A DNA stretch of 64,000 nt from Cucumis sativus (taxonomy: Eukaryota > Streptophyta > Magnoliopsida > Cucurbitales > Cucurbitaceae): contig NC_026661.2 of NCBI RefSeq assembly GCF_000004075.3, positions 3,658,001 through 3,722,000 on the forward strand. The letters are read 5' to 3'. A program made the position numbers and the translations under genes. Under the pieces are notes generated by a model. That model saw nothing but the letters and a program-made list of their open reading frames with translations, had not been told where the DNA came from and did no database searches. Shown one piece after another: positions 4,397 through 52,944 of the stretch. Within the stretch, counting starts at the first letter, position 1. Every line of letters begins with the position of its first letter.

Positions 4397-4469
4397 TTCC
4401 GTTGCCGGGACTTGAACCCGGGTCTCTCGGGTGAGAGCCGAGTATCCTAACCAACTAGACTACAACGGA
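4397..4469 (-). tRNA. trnE-CTC: tRNA-Glu (anticodon CTC)
   Basis: The minus strand folds as a 73-base cloverleaf. The acceptor stem TCCGTTG pairs with CAACGGA, followed by discriminator A. The D arm contains TAGTCTAGTTGGTTAGGA. The anticodon stem-loop has loop CTCTCAC, so the anticodon is CTC and it reads GAG codons. The T arm has GGTTCAAGTCC. There is no intron and no encoded CCA, as in nuclear plant tRNA genes. The internal A and B boxes are intact and a T-run terminator follows, so it looks functional. Confidence 0.97.
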
Positions 4470-36908: not shown

Positions 36909-39900
36909 TCATTCAGACTTCACAAGGTTGCTATTGTCTTCAGTGCCCTTTGTTGATTTTCGTTTTCTCTTTGATTTTTCAAACGAAATCCTCTTATATT
37001 TCTTCATGGGTCCTTCCTTCTCATCAAAAAGGTATTTGTACTTTACGAGTACCCTCTCTTTCTCTTCAAGCAAGCCTAGCATCTCACAAGCATCTGCAAC
37101 CCTCTGAACTATTGATTTGTCTGGGGGTTTACGTCCGAAGGCTTCGAGATCCTTAAAAAGCTTTTGATTGAAGAAGACAAGTTTAGATTAACAGAGAATA
37201 GAGGGTAATGCAATCAGATAAAACTCATCAATACATCAACCATTTTGCACCAATATATACCATTCTGTAAGTCAGTCATTGTGAAGTGTAGTGGTTATCA
37301 AACACTCTTTTCTAATTGAGCCTTCCTACCTCTAAGACAAACGGGAATTTCTCTTCTTGTTTGGGGCATTTATTTCAGTTTGGGAGGGATGACCGCCGGA
37401 CTAAGTGAAGGTTCTACCAATATGGAGTTCAATAACAATATACCTATCTGCAAGGGAATTTGATTTAATACGAAGTTGTAAAGTAAATTGCATTTGGAGC
37501 TCTAATTCATAGGAAACAAGAGAGTTTTTCCTGTTTTTCTTCTGTTTGATGCGCTGTTGGAGTGATAGTCCTCCCTTAACATTGCAAAACGACTGGATTC
37601 CAAATGACCATCGTTTCTCCTTTCTTCAAGTGGGAACTATCAAAGAAGCATAAAAACATGGAGTTTCAATGGATAACCTCAAGCTTTATTTTGGCAACTA
37701 AGACAAGGTCAACAGATAACTGAACCCCTGGTCCATATCAAATGGATTATTCCTAAAAAAAAATTTGGTGCTCTTTCTTGTATATTCAAAACCTAGTAAA
37801 ATCAAGTTCGCTTTGCAAGAGGGCAAGGAAACCTAAATATAATTAAAAGAGATCAAAATGTCTCTTCAACCATAGGAGCCATGCAGCCACTGTTAGGTTG
37901 TTGTGCTTGTATGAGATTAATGCTCCTTTGTTTATTTCCATATTTTATTTACATTGCGCCGTTCTTGATCTTTTACCCCGCTGGCCATAGGAATATATGA
38001 TAATCATTTACCATTCATCACTTGAGAAATTGAACTAGTTCAGATCTTTTTTTTTTTATAAGAGACAAGTATATTCATATAACGAGACAGAACATCCTAA
38101 GGGCGAGGGACAAGAGGGCCCTCCCCGGAAGAAGCTAGGGAACTAAGACATAATGGCCTTCCAATTGTTGAAAATCATAGAAAGGCTATAATTACAAAAG
38201 TGTTTGGTGTAATTCGTACTCCACCAAGAGGCTGTGTGTTGAACCACAGTCCAAAAAGAATCAAAAGAATTAAATCTATCTTAAAAAATTCCGCTATTCC
38301 TTTCTTTCCAAATACTCCACAAAAGGGAACGCGTCGCACATTTCCATAAGATGTTTCCTTTAGGGCTGTAACCTCTAATGTTAAGACCTTCAATCATCCA
38401 GCTATCAATCTTGCTAGGAAGGCAAAGCTCCAAATCAAAAATACCAAACAGAGTGTTCCAAGCTTTTCTTGTGAAGGGACAATGTAGAAATAAATGATCC
38501 AAGGTTTCCTCATCTTTAGCGCATAGGCAACACATCGAGGGGCTAAGCAATGTGTTCTGAATTTTTTTTTGTAGTTTCTCATGGGGTGTTGAGGCTTCTG
38601 TAAGCAAGCGACCATAAGAAAAACTTCACCTTCTTCGGAATTTTATTCTTCCAAATATGACGAATCAAGGGAACAGCAATGTTGGGGGATCTCTTAGTTA
38701 AGTTAAGAAAAGTAGATTTTGTAGTGAAGTTGCCATTCATGTTAGGAATCCATTTAAGACTATCATTCCTTTCAGTGGGGGCCCAAGAGTGAAGAATTTC
38801 TAAAGCAGAGGCCGCATTGGCAATCTCGTTGTCGAGCATATTTCTTCTAAGGCCCAAATTCCAAGAATGAGTAGCAGTACACCAGCATTCAGCCACATAA
38901 GCATCCTTATTCAGCGCCAAAGAGAATAAGTTAGGGAATTTTTCTGCAAGTGTTTCCGCGACACACCATTTATCCTTCCAAAATTTGATTTTTGTTCCTT
39001 CTCCCAAAACAAAAGCAGAAAAATTAAAGAATATCTCCTTATGCTTTAAAATACCAGCCCATAATCTATGAGATTTTCCCCTGTTTGGATCTTTGGTAGA
39101 CCACCCATTCTCATCTAAACCATAGATGGCCACAATTAATCGCCTCCATAAAGAGGTTTCTTCCTTACTAAACCTCCAAAACCATTTAGTGAGAAGAGCA
39201 ATATTCTTTTGCCTAAAAGAGCCAATCCCAAGACCACCATAACAAGTTGGGGTGGAAGTGCATTCCCAGTTGACGAGATGAGCAATTGGATTCGTAGATC
39301 CACCTGTCCAAACAAACTTCCTGATCATCTGTTCCAATCTATTAATAACGCCAACTGGAGCTTGAGCAAGGGAGAAGAGATAACAAGGGAGGCTGTTGAG
39401 AACTGATTGCACCAGAGTTAGTCTACCCCCTTTGGAGAGGGATACATTCCTCCACCTATCAAATTTGTGTCTGAATCTCTCTTCAAGATTGTTCCACATC
39501 TCTTTTCTATTATGACCCCTTCCAATAGAGAAGCCCAAATATTTAAAGGGAAGATTATCGACCGAGCATCCCGTAGATTCACTAAAAGGAGCTAAGTCAT
39601 CATTGCTAAGGTTAATACCGATCAGGGAGGTTTTAGCTCTATTAAGGGAAAGACCGGCTCCCATAAGGAAGATATTAACCACCTTCCACCAGTTCTCCAG
39701 ATTTCCATCCTCCCAGGAAGAAAAAAGAAGCGTGTCGTCTGCGTACTGAAGATGGGTTAAATCCTCTGACAGGTTCTCAAAATGAAAGCCTTTTAAACTC
39801 CTTTTCTCATTACAGTAGTGGATAAGGCAGCTTAGAGCATCTCCCACAATCGTAAAAAGAAAAGGAGCAAGAGGATCACCTTGACGAATGCCCCTTTTAG

Positions 39901-42900
39901 CAATAATTTTTCCTCTAGGCCTCCCGTTGACAATGATGGAGAAATTAGTTGTCGACAAGCATCCCCAAATCCATTTCCTCCATCTCTTACCAAAGCCTTT
40001 AAGTTTCATGATCATATCAAGAAAAGACCAATCCACCTTATCATAAGCTCTCTCCAGGTCGAGCTTCAAAAGCACGCCTTTTCTGCCTCTTAAAGACCAT
40101 TCGTCAACAGCCTCAGAAGCAGTTAAAATAGCATCAAGGATTTGTCTTCCCTCCACAAAAGCCATTTGAGAGTTATTAATTATCGATGGAATAACTTTTT
40201 TAAGCCTTGAAGCAAGCACCTTGGAGATAATTTTATACAAGGAGGTAATCAAGCTAATTGGTCTGAAGTCACTGACACGGCCCGCCTCTTTCTTTTTGGG
40301 GATGAGGCAAATATAAGTCTCGTTACATCTTCTATTAATAACTCCGTTTTTAAAAAAATCTTGGAACACCCTTACGAGGTCGGATTTCAGAATGTTCCAT
40401 GATTTTTTATAAAACTCTCCAGTCATGCCATCAGGGCCAGGGGACTTGAGACAACCCAAATCAAAGACAGCTTCTCTAATTTCTTTTTCGGTAAAGGGAG
40501 CCTCAAGTAAATTCGAATCCTGTAAGCTAAGGCCTCTCCAATTAAGACCGTCACAAATAAACGGCGAGGAGATCCTTGTGCCATATAACATTGAAAAGAA
40601 GCTGAGGATCTCATCCACAATCTCCTTATCTGTGACAAGAGTCTTCCCATCAATACTAACCAAGGAAGAAATAATACTTTTACTTTTACGAGCCGAAATC
40701 CATCTGTGGAAGAAGCTTGAGTTTTCCTCCCCCTCTCTAAGCCAGTGAAGCTTCGACTTCTTAATCCACAACTTCTGTTCTTTCACAATCAAATCAAGCA
40801 GAGCTCCTCTACAGTTTTCTCTTTCCTTCACATTTTCCTCGTTGAGGCAGCTTGACTCTTCAAGTGAGTCAAAAGAGTTAATCTTATCAATCAGCACCTG
40901 TTTTTGGGAGAAAATGTTACCAAAAGTCTCCTTATTCCAACTTTTTAGGATGGCTTTCAGACCTTTTAGCTTTTCCATGAAAGAGAATATAGGCCAGCCA
41001 TCAGCCTCCAAACTGCCCCACCAGTTCTCAACATTTTTAAAGAAAAGATGATGATCCAGCCAAGCATTTTCAAATCTAAAAGGTGTGGGACCCCAGGAAT
41101 GAGCCCCCATTTTTAAAAGTATCGAAAAGTGATCCGATGTGGTACGAGGAAGTCTTTCCACACTTACTTCTCTAAAGAACTCCATCCAAGGCTTGGATAG
41201 AGGGAATCTGTCGAGCTTTGAAGCAGCGGGCCTAACCCCTAATCGGGACCAAGAGAACCTTCCGTTTCGGAAGGGAATATCCACCAAATCCAACTCCTCA
41301 ATCAGGTTGTTAAATCGAAGCATACTTCTAGTCGGGCGAGTGCCAAAGCTCTTCTCATTTAACCATCTGACTACATTGAAGTCACCCCCTACGCACCAGT
41401 TATCGTTGCACAAGCCATATAAGCTAGAAAGCTCCATCCAGAATTGGTCTCTACGTCTATAAGACGAGGGGCCGTAAACACCTGTTATCCATCCACAGAA
41501 ACCAGCATTAAGTTTACAATGAATAGAAACAGAGAACTCCCCTTGAATTGAGTCATCTACCGTGAGTGAATCCTCTTTCCACAAAATAAGAATACCACCC
41601 GACGAACCATAAGCCTCTAAGGAAGCCCAGCCAACAAACCGACTACTCCAAACGGACTTCACCAACTGACGATCGACACTGCTTACTTTAGTTTCTTGTA
41701 GAATTACCACATCTGGATTGAATTTCACAAGCGCTCTTTTGGGGCGAGCATTAATACCCCTTACATTCCAAGAGATAATTAACATGGATCACCCTCAAAG
41801 CCCGGCTTATTATTATCTTTTTCCGCTTGGGCTTCCCTTTCCCAACTACCTAGCAGTGCTTTGACTTCTCTAGTAAGCTTTTTGTTGTTGTTCGAGGAGG
41901 TCCCACCCTTCCTATGTTGTTTCCCTTTTCTGGTTACAGCCCGAATGCATAAATCATATTCAAGTAGAGCCGCTATCACCTCCTTACTCAATGGAAAAGG
42001 ATTCTGTATAGAAGCTGCTGGTTCTAACTCGGTTACGCTTTCAGTTTCAAATAACTCTTCATTGGATAAAGGAAGCTCACCGGTATCCTCAACAGCTATT
42101 AGCTGGAGACCCTCTTCCCTACCTCTTTCCGTGGTGCTTACCTCGTGGAAGAGTCTTTGGACGTCGGAAGAAAAATCCGAGATGTGCTGCACGTCTTCGG
42201 CTTCAAGAGGAGCAAATTTGTTTTCAGAGATGAGGCTGCCCGGGCTAGAAATAGAAACGTCCGAAGTTGGATCTATTTCTCCATGAATGCGGTCTGATAT
42301 GAACGTTGAAGTTGAAGAGCCTCCAGGTTGGTTTGTGGAGCAGATCACACTGTTTTTAAAGAAAGGTCGAATTTCTTCCTTTTCTGCAAACTTAATTTTG
42401 GTGGGCTTGGGTAATTTTAGTAAAAGGGGTTGGTTGGCACGGGTAGCTTGGGAATTTTCTCTAATAAAAAGCCCAGTTTGCTTTTTAATATTGGTGGGTT
42501 GTTGAGTAAGTACTTCATCAACTGCTATGCCTTTCCCTTTTAAATCAGGGAAGCCCACATCTGTAATGAGGCCCACTTCATTGGTCAAGCCCAATTTATT
42601 AGTCAAATCCATTAGGGTTTGCTTGGGCGGCAAATTTGAATTAGTTCCTCTAATATCTCCGTCAGTTTGCAGAGAAGGACAGATGTTCTCAGCTTCTTCT
42701 GTCGCCGTACTCACCATCTCAGAATTCTGAAAAGCGAAAACTGCCAGCCTTGAGTTCGACTTCTCCACACGCCAAATATCAATCGGGTTCGGATCCGGGC
42801 CGCCCGGACCTTTGAAGAAATTCTCAACTTGTTCCGGCGAGAAGGATCCATGGATTCCGGCGACTTTATCAATAAGAAGATTGGGATCTTGGAAGGAAGC

Positions 42901-45900
42901 CACCTGCACAAGATAAGAATCGGGACCTTCTATCAGCTCAAAATCCACCGAAATGAAGCCGCAGTAATTCCCTCTAACTTTGATATTCACTTCCAAACAG
43001 TTAATGAGGCTCGAATTTTCTTCCGCAAACTCAATGAAGCCTCCAAGAACAAAGCTAGGGTTTGAAATGTTTGTGAAGGCCCACAAAACATGAACCTAGT
43101 AAAAGGAACCATAAACTTGACACACTATGAACCACGTCCGATCAGTACAGATCAAAATCAAGTTTAGGAGTATACTTTAGTCAAGGATTCAAAATAAAAA
43201 GAGTTATAAAATCTGTTGGTTTATAACTAAGAGAATATCGAGGAGTAGTAGATTAGCATAATACAATGATCAATTAAAGTGAATCAATTCTATAGAGCTT
43301 GGCCTGTTAATCTTGTCTTTTCAATTATTCCTTACTAATCAGTTTTTTTTTTACTAATAAAAACACTTCCATTGAGAGATAATGAAGAATTTACATGAGT
43401 GGCAATACCCAAGCCCCGAGAAAGTCGCATTACAAAAAAGGATCCCAGCTAAGGTTAGTAAGATCCAAAGAACAATTACAAAATGTTTTTGACAACAAAG
43501 CCCAAAGCGAAACGTGATAATGAACGAGAGACCAAAGGTCTTTAGAGTCCCTCTCCACACCTCTAAAAGTCCTATATTCTGTTCACCCCATAAAAACCAC
43601 AAGATTGCACAGACAGTAGCACTCCAAAGAAATTTGCCTTTGTCCCCAACAAGCAAATTGAGGAGGTATTCCTCAATCATACCTACTGCTCTGAGGTGAG
43701 CAGTATCCCTACCAAATGTCGAGCAAAGTAACCCCATACAGTACTCGCATAATCACAACTCCAAGGGATATGGTCCAAGCCTTCCGCTGACTTGTAAAAG
43801 AGAACACAGCAAAAAGGGCCAAACTAACGAGGGCATTGTTGATTTTATGGAATAAATCTATATTTCATTCATTATTTAGTAGAGATACAAGCTTATATAT
43901 AACCATAGAGAAATAGACTTAAGGAAATAATATCAAATAATATCTCTAGAATAATATCACCTAAGAATAATCTAATTATATTAATAACCTTAACGAGTTA
44001 TGCCAAGAAAAGAATCTCAAGTTTCTAGAACTCTTAATCCTGCAAGGTTTGTAGGAAAGATTTGCAAGAATAGTCCTTCATGGGATTGGGGCTCCATATT
44101 CTAACTGTTGGTGATATATAATTAAATTTGCCTTCAACCACCAGCTTAAGCTTTTGGATGAATTGGTGGTTTAATATGGTATCAGAGCAGGTGGTCCAGG
44201 GAGGTCCTGTGTTCAAGCCCCTGCATTGTCGTTTCCTCCCCAATTAAAATCAATTTCCACTTGTTGGGCCTTTCAGATATTTCAAGCCCACAAGTGAGGG
44301 GGAGTGTTGGTGATATATAATTAAATTTGCCTTCAACCACCAGCTTAAGCTTTTGGATGAATTGGTGGTAATACTAACATCCCTTCTACCTTGTCGAAAG
44401 TGGTGATCCTCCAATAAGGAAAGGAGTGTAAGTGGTAACCACTTCCATCCTTTCCTCATCAGTAAGGTGTCGATTAAAAACGAAGTGCAAAGAATATGAA
44501 TTCCCCAACCATACTAAGAAGTCAGACATTATGTGATATGACCATACTGAGGAGTCAGACATTACCTGATATTTGAGGTAAGAGAAATGATACAAAGTGG
44601 GAAAGGAGGCACAAAAAGGTTTATCCCCAACCCAAAAATAAGTAGTTTTCCCATCCCCCACCACACATCGGACCCAAGGAGAAGATTTAGGAAGCTCTTT
44701 TGAAATTTCTTTCCAAAATTTCCGGTGCATGCCTTTACATTTATTAAATCACCAATTCACCCAAAAGCTTAAACTTGTGGTTGAAGGCAAATTTAATTAT
44801 ATATCACCAACAACATTCTCTAGACAACCACTCAAAAGGATGGGGACCAAATTTGAATGGTAGCATAATTACACGCTTGGAAAGATTGAGAATTCGCCAC
44901 TGGACTAGGTCCATTACAAGGAAGTTTTAAGTATTAGGAAGATAATGTTGGTTGTCTTTGGCTGAAATATTTGAAATTGGTATAGTTTGTTTTATTTCGT
45001 TTCGTTGTAATTTGAATGTTATTCTCTTTTCATTCTATCAATGAAAAGGCTTGTTTCCTTTATAAAAAAAAATGTTTTTCTCCATTAATGGAAACATTTA
45101 ATTTTTTTTGTTTTTAAAATGGGAGAAAAAATTTATTTCCTATTCCAAATAGTTTAATGGGAAAGTGAAAAATAAATAAATAATAAAAACAATATCCCAA
45201 GCATAAAGTCATTTCCAGAAGGCACTGGCACTGCAATAGACTGAATAAAACTAAAAATGAGAATTATACCTTTACAAGGTCTTCTAGCCTTTTATTTCGG
45301 TAGTATATTGCCATCATGCTTCTGCACACTTGCCAGGGAACTGAATGAAGATCCGAACCAATCTTCATGACCCAAAATTTGTGTGCTTCTTCCCCTCGAT
45401 GGTCCATGTCTAAAGCCCGTATTAACTGCCCATAGACATTCATTGTGGTTCCCTGGCCCTTGCTTAGCATCCATTTGATTACCTAGAAGACATTCACATG
45501 AATCTAACAGCATCCATTTCTATCATGTTCATGACCTATAGAATTACCCAATATTTTGTCCAAATTCAATGACGACAAGTTTTAAAAAAATATTTTAGAA
45601 GTTGACATTTCCACAGCTTAACTCAAAATATCTATAGTATTATTAGGCCAGAGTATTACCCAACACACATAGTACTCTTCAATTTATGTGAATTAATCTA
45701 AACAAGTAGAAGTCTTTAACTAATCTACATTACACAATTATTCTTTTTTCCTTTTGAAACAGAAACGAGTCTCTTTATTAGTGACAATAAATTAGCCTAA
45801 TGCTTAAAGTACAAAAGTAATATACTGTGAGCAATAGATAGGAGAAAAATGACTAAAAGGACAATCAAAATAATGGTACAAACAAGCCAAAATCCTCTAT

Positions 45901-51900: not shown

Positions 51901-52944
51901 CCACTAATCTTATCATCATCAAGTTTGCATAAAGCCTATCCACCATGGAAAGATTAAACGGAATAGAGATGGTAAATTGATCTACCTAAGCACCTTTAAT
52001 CTACTTCCAATTGTTAGGAGCAAACAATCTAGACACAACCATAGCTTGTTGACCATTTCCTGATCCATTCTTACCCCGTGTAAATAAGAAGCAAAAAGAT
52101 GTAATGAAGTAAATAATATAGTCCTAAATCACCAATTCAACCAAAAGTTTAAGTTGATGGTTGAAGGCAAATTTAATTATATATCACTAACACTCCCCCT
52201 CACTTATGAGCTTGAAATATTTGAAAGACCCAACAAGTGAAAATCAATTTTAATTGGGGAGAAAACAACAATGCAGGGGCTTAAACACAAGACCTTCCTG
52301 GACCAGCTTCTTTGATGCCATCTTAAATCACCAATTCAACCAAATGTTTAAGTTGGTGGTTGAAGGAAAATTTAATTATATATCCCTAACATATAGTGAT
52401 GACAGAAAGAAATAGGGGTTTTTTTTAACAGAAATGATTTACAATACTTTCCATCAGCATAATGAAAGATAAGTGCTCCAAAATACTACATACCAGGAAC
52501 TACCAGGCATAAAGACATACATTAAATTGAATTAAAGAAAGCATTCAAGTTCAAACTTCAGACAACTGTTCTGAACAGAATAACCACAAAAAGCTTTTGA
52601 TTGAAAACACCATGATGAGGCAAGAAGATGTGTTGAACCCAACCGATCTGTCCAATCAAGTGGTAGGTTTGTGACAGAAGGAAATAGGAGATTTGAAAGG
52701 CTAATCGCTATTACTTTTAACAGGAAACAAGAAGTCTTGCCAATTAGTGTTTGACGTTTGCAACTCTTATTGATGCAAACAGTTTTAGCATTTGAACACT
52801 TAAAATGCTGTTCTTTGGGTTTTTTTCCCCCTTTCAGAATTAGACTATTAGTTATTCCAAAAGAATTCTTAAAGCCTCCTATGAAATGAAAATATACCCA
52901 TATGTAATGAGTGAGACTCAATTCAAAACCAACCCCCCTGCCCC

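Follow-up and report, generated by a model that had tools for sequence, protein, structure and literature searches.

At positions 44106-44373 of the window (the whole 64-kb stretch of cucumber DNA analysed here) lies a complete, protein-less LTR retroelement of the TRIM type with a total length of 268 bp. Its parts and neighbours are listed in Table 1. The two LTRs show 0 substitutions over 65 bp, the PBS and the PPT each abut an LTR and a perfect CTAAC TSD encloses the whole, which bears out the sequence-only reading of a complete element. Two relatives are found in the window as well: a solo LTR, and an older full-length copy that carries 5 substitutions between its own LTRs. The focal element is situated about 1 kb beyond the 5' side of a LINE-type element, whose 1069-aa frame matches RVT_1 and an endonuclease (zf-RVT falls just under the cut-off) and whose upstream 438-aa frame is without Pfam match. 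The direct repeats between the focal element and the solo LTR sit in a minus-strand open frame of 120 aa, also without Pfam match.

Table 1. Features of the focal element and its surroundings (positions in the 64-kb window)
Feature	Position	Strand	Basis or remark
tRNA-Glu (CTC) gene	4397..4469	-	ARAGORN
LINE-type element	38281..43095	-	Pfam matches
TSD CTAAC, left	44101..44105	+	sequence; same as 44374-44378
5' LTR, 71 bp, TGTTGG...TTTAATA	44106..44176	+	sequence
TATATAA, candidate TATA box, LTR position 10	44115..44121	+	putative promoter function
GCTTAAGC palindrome, LTR positions 39-46	44144..44151	+	sequence
PBS TGGTATCAGAGC	44177..44188	+	abuts 5' LTR directly; exchange point in hybrid copies
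Internal region, 128 bp, non-coding	44177..44304	+	sequence
Predicted stem-loop just upstream of PPT, CACTTGTTGGGC / GCCCACAAGTG	44258..44296	+	fold prediction
PPT GAGGGGGAG	44296..44304	+	directly against 3' LTR
3' LTR, 69 bp	44305..44373	+	two T's missing before terminal AATA
TSD CTAAC, right	44374..44378	+	sequence
Two direct 32-bp repeats, 88% identical	44508..44572		spacing 33
Solo LTR of the same family, 94% identical	44742..44812	-	ACATT at 44737-44741 and 44813-44817
Older full-length copy of the same family	52122..52391	-	internal region 88% identical; TSD CTATA

We take the PBS of the focal element to match a met-tRNA. The PBS sequence TATCAGAGC is given as complementary to the 3' end of met-tRNA in PMC2829016; no Met tRNA gene is present among the 10 cucumber tRNA loci that were fetched. 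Folding of the whole internal region is weak (z -1.78, with 13 of 200 shuffles folding as well or better), and the stem-loop segment is found duplicated in several other copies of the family. A tRNA-like or box-B character of the region after the PBS, where TGTTCAAGCCC resembles a T-arm, was considered and dropped: Rfam listed no tRNA, and a general pattern of PBS plus box B gave 1 match in the genome.

The TRIM assignment follows from direct LTRs of 71 and 69 bp with TG...TA ends, a PBS beside the 5' LTR (from 44177), a PPT beside the 3' LTR (ending at 44304), a 5-bp TSD that is perfect in 30 of 41 units of the family, and a dispersed, repeated and non-coding sequence. The 8 Rfam matches in 44000-44500 (E<=10) include no 5S rRNA, as would mark a Cassandra/Ajax LTR, and the same scan gave no tRNA match of the kind expected for Helenus, which carries a tRNA-like sequence in its LTR (PMC10886601). 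The LTRs had been placed at the extreme low end for LTR elements. With 71-bp LTRs and 268 bp in total it is indeed small but no record, given that the published TRIM CcaRetroS9 measures 233 bp with 52-bp LTRs (PMC4717578).

The focal element belongs to a dispersed family, called family A here. In the genome searched (226.6 Mb in 88 contigs) at least 51 places match the 268-bp query (40 of 1112 first-look candidates scored) and the 134-bp query 44171-44304 finds at least 47 (40 scored out of 671 candidates). A pattern for the junction between A LTR and PBS, allowing up to 2 mismatches, yields 119+109 = 228 junctions genome-wide, against 0 matches for the reversed-pattern control. We delimited 41 LTR-internal-LTR units (chosen by similarity or list order and not a random sample); the 30 perfect 5-bp TSDs comprise 28 different sequences, while mismatched flank pairs at the same offsets were perfect in 43 of 1640 cases. 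Five of the 11 units without TSD have the PPT-like GGGAG as 5' flank, so that further element sequence follows on that side. Members of the family usually measure 270 bp. At C1:31020252-31020515 lies another copy that equals the focal element over 264 bp but is flanked by TACCT instead of CTAAC, hence the two represent separate insertions. This outcome of the copy test agrees with the earlier proposal of a TRIM. The recent movement it had read from the near-identical LTRs is plausible, since 19 of the 41 LTR pairs are without substitution, although LTRs of 65-71 bp have little dating power. Its suggestion of a large donor element ending in the same LTRs found no counterpart: none has an A LTR at both ends among the hybrids and the 30 of 228 junctions that were read, and in all 30 the A internal region comes next. 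Searching exactly for A LTR and PBS followed by a non-A base returned 3 places, of which two (L069 and L071) are hybrids with a second family, described below, and one (L070) continues into a copia-like leader.

Rearranged copies of family A were observed as well. At C7:10440033-10440795 (L012/L026) A LTRs and short, repeated ends of the internal region form an array. Its repeat units contain TTATCATG, which is identical to the flanking sequence; given these flank-like units the array may have grown after insertion. The segment just before the PPT, i.e. the hairpin region, is recurrently duplicated with several different breakpoints (L035, L045, L050, L053, L055, L056, L060, L063, L064, L065 and L068). 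The TSD is perfect at nine of the 11, the exceptions being L035 and L064, the latter outside the scored set.

A second TRIM, called family B, is unrelated to A. In the copy read first its LTR measures 127 bp and its internal region 80 bp. Apart from the 12-nt PBS and TGAGGGGG, nothing detectable is common to both families: 150 of 300 shuffles score as well as the actual comparison of the LTRs, and 34 of 300 for the internal regions minus PBS. With up to 3 mismatches, 29 pure junctions of B LTR and B internal region exist genome-wide. Under the same threshold 8 junctions join an A LTR to a B internal region and 4 join a B LTR to an A internal region. Seven of the former were read and all 7 are hybrid; judged by its matched letters the eighth, C4:19898019, is apparently a mutated pure A junction. 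All 4 of the latter were read and are hybrid too. In total there are ten A/B loci (L038 included), eight of which were found via patterns that demand a join at the PBS, so that joins elsewhere may be under-sampled. The other two, L028 and L038, emerged without any junction pattern among 30 loci from an internal-region search, and both are joined at the PBS.

A perfect TSD surrounds the whole hybrid at five of the ten A/B loci. L072 reads A LTR, B internal region, B LTR, A internal region, A LTR (TSD CAGAT); L075 reads A LTR, B internal region, B LTR (GTATA); L038 reads A LTR, A internal region, A R-U5, part of the B internal region, B LTR (AGCCT). The remaining two, L076 (GTCTC) and L078 (CCCAT), are hybrids with inverted parts, and L078 contains an additional join outside the PBS, from the A U5 end to position 43 of the B LTR. 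As one perfect TSD encloses the whole structure, these five hybrids must have been assembled before integration. At the other five loci the TSD is imperfect (L028, 4 of 5 bases, CTATT/CTATC), no matching TSD is seen (L073), the structure ends inside an LTR (L079), or the locus is old and its ends are without exact limits (L074 and L077). In L073 (C1:30431500-30432900) the A LTR, B internal region and B LTR are located between copia RNase H-like and gag-like stretches, as labelled by eye.

Inverted structures may provide a further trace of the copying process. In L076 the A U5 end forms a perfect palindrome of 58 bp; L014 has one of 82 bp that includes the PBS and L078 one of 58 bp, the latter two with at most 6 mismatched pairs. 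All three palindromes are centred at LTR positions 42/43, which is the middle of GCTTAAGC in the focal element and lies about 30 nt downstream of TATATAA. TSDs flank L076 and L078; for L014 none is clear. The palindromes fit minus-strand strong-stop DNA whose 3' end paired with itself or with another copy and was then extended. Their centre would also put the RNA start of A at about LTR position 40, in agreement with L038, whose A LTR sets in again at position 41.

Physical joins also connect family A to Ty1-copia elements. L027 (C4:11398743-11399726) is a composite of A and pol fragments of an element called copia D, in the order of an inverted A with partial LTRs, an inverted copia piece, a forward copia piece, and the A PBS, internal region and LTR. 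The inverted piece equals D over 192/192 bp and matches Pfam Pol_BBD; it includes WVIDSGA, which we take to be the protease motif. The forward piece is 99% identical over a 503-bp alignment and matches rve and gag_pre-integrs. At the point where the composite is joined to the A PBS, the sequence of D is TGGTgttgCAGAGC and resembles a PBS. A scan of 3535 bp of D pieces shows no further sites of this kind except D's own PBS in two copies. The composite is without clean TSD. L020 on C55 is the same composite as L027 on C4 with similar flanks, and the two therefore count as one event.

Copia D is an intact young Ty1-copia family. A protein search gave at least 151 matches (150 of 1597 candidates scored), with at least 25 places at 99% identity over the whole 153-aa query, at least 7 of which have an open frame of 1377 codons. 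In both copies read the two LTRs agree at 100%, over 145 bp in one copy and 142 bp in the other. Its PBS is TGGTATCAGAGCC, and the junction of PPT and LTR, GAGGGGGAG followed by TGTT, is common to A, copia D and a further element, copia C. The latter is connected to the TRIMs by L070, an A LTR and PBS followed by a copia C-like leader (70% over 717 bp), and by L028, in which a copia C-type LTR (83% identical to copia C) is followed by PBS, B internal region, B LTR, PBS, A internal region and A LTR. A pattern search for A LTRs on a D internal region gave 0 matches, and one for D LTRs on an A internal region gave 2, both D variants by their matched letters. L015, at first taken for a copia-A hybrid, is rather an A LTR into which copia C has inserted (ATACA, TGTTGGTGATATATAAT and TGTTGGAATTC in succession).

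Summarizing, we consider it probable that family A is an ordinary TRIM that relies for its copying on Ty1-copia particles, which act in trans and are shared with TRIM B. The basis of this reading is directly visible in the anatomy, the dispersed copies with different TSDs, the solo LTR with its TSD, the TSD-flanked hybrids and the physical joins to copia. The A LTR, with its candidate TATA box at 10-16 and putative RNA start near 40, would give rise to a short non-coding RNA. This RNA would be packaged into Ty1-copia particles, presumably together with B, primed by met tRNA at the PBS and copied, after which copia enzymes acting in trans would integrate the product with a 5-bp duplication. The A/B hybrids would arise when a strand is transferred to the PBS of another template packaged in the same particle, probably at the second-strand transfer, with plus-strand strong-stop DNA landing on the minus strand of the other element. 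Strand transfer explains the hybrids best because plus-strand strong-stop DNA terminates in the copied tRNA 3' end, which is the same for both elements. In a wider sense, unrelated TRIMs and Ty1-copia elements that have just the met-tRNA PBS and the PPT in common would pass through one particle pool, with the PBS marking a boundary between modules where any LTR can be combined with any internal region; we give this generalization slightly better than even chances.

That nesting, unequal exchange or end joining among neighbouring A, B and copia copies generated the hybrids from already integrated sequences seems improbable. Nesting does occur (copia C inside an A LTR has its own duplication), arrays with repeated units exist and half of the A/B loci miss a perfect TSD, but five hybrids each within one perfect 5-bp TSD are not expected from stepwise exchange, and the homology at the PBS joins amounts to just 12 bp. 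Still more doubtful is that A and B belong together in a single larger family, with the hybrids as parent form and A and B as deletion products. Orders do recur, A-B-A in L072 and L079 and A-A-B-B in L074 and L077; nonetheless, the pure forms (228 junctions for A, 29 for B) outnumber the hybrids, each has its own LTR pair and TSDs (e.g. the B copy L082, with TCAAG on both sides), and hybrid orders differ among loci. Practically no weight is left for segmental duplication of a single-copy sequence that is not mobile. It accounts for single cases only, such as the C4/C55 composite with common flanks, and is refuted for the family by the 28 different perfect TSDs and unrelated flanks; the sequence is neither single-copy nor confined to shared flanks, as the 228 junctions and the separate insertions demonstrate.

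Concerning the helper, the protein partner that the sequence-only reading had left unnamed is narrowed by the hybrids to those Ty1-copia elements that have PBS and PPT in common with A. Copia D is the leading candidate, based on one event, in view of its 1377-codon frame, identical LTR pairs in both checked copies, and the same PBS and PPT-LTR junction; copia C-like elements would come second. That another Ty1-copia family than D, or several of them, acted as helper is a serious possibility to which we assign a little less than even weight. The A LTR on a copia C-like leader (L070) and the C-type LTR joined to B and A (L028) speak in its favour, as do the negative searches for strand-transfer hybrids of A and D. 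On the other hand, as far as they were compared, the sharing between C and A (PBS, PPT and TGTT start) is no greater than that between D and A, and the D pieces at the join still match an existing D copy at 99-100%, which makes the join young.

Non-autonomous elements with a proposed autonomous partner and chimeric elements are also known from Dasheng/RIRE2 in rice, which resembles the present case in these respects and differs in that its elements are large. The kind of element described here is already known: smaller TRIMs, tandem TRIM arrays and Ty1-copia helper candidates are all published. For cucumber, 4 TRIM subfamilies with 30 complete copies and 2,816 copies in total are reported (PMC4717578, Gao et al. 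2016), to one of which family A may belong. Like the plant TRIMs in that survey, family A is short and non-coding, has a PBS, PPT and 5-bp TSD, and forms arrays (tandem arrays being common in TRIMs); hybrids between different TRIM families, as seen here, are not described in the available text of PMC4717578. In near-equal size, solo LTRs with TSDs and a TATA motif in the LTR, family A resembles SMART, one grass family whose member FRetro129 measures 292 bp with 85-bp LTRs and for which the authors found no homologue outside grasses (PMC3281118, Gao et al. 2012). There too the candidate helper, FRetro64, is a Ty1-copia element with common PBS and PPT and a different LTR. However, FRetro64 has 96% of the SMART internal region whereas the copia candidates for A share just the PBS and PPT, and for A, unlike SMART, the link to a helper comes from hybrid joins (PMC3281118).

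Complex TSD-flanked insertions similar to ours were observed in cereals and explained by template switching between co-packaged RNAs (Sabot and Schulman 2007, PMC1950507). VejuL and BARE2, apparently the products of a switch from one RNA to a different one within the same particle, set a precedent for hybrids between elements (PMC1950507). The Angela, Squiq and Opie complexes of the same study arose within one large family each, with switching proposed at R, whereas the hybrids described here connect two unrelated TRIMs, and copia sequences, through the PBS. Four sequence strings of the element gave no match in full-text literature. Judged mostly from titles and abstracts, PBS-joined and TSD-flanked hybrids of unrelated TRIM families that point to a helper were not found in the literature either.

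The shortness of family A lets accidents of reverse transcription be seen clearly, as inverted strong-stop-like palindromes, PBS swaps and PPT-side duplications. Naming the helper of a TRIM matters given that 278 of 289 plant TRIM subfamilies are without protein-coding relative and a larger relative is known for just 11 (in flowering plants these are Ty1-copia elements; PMC4717578). TSD-flanked hybrids record which RNAs were copied together, and thereby make the assignment of a helper testable from genome sequence alone. If our reading is true, such hybrids are fossils of co-packaging that could name the helper of a TRIM without any sequence similarity between the two, and those found here would point to copia D and C-like elements.
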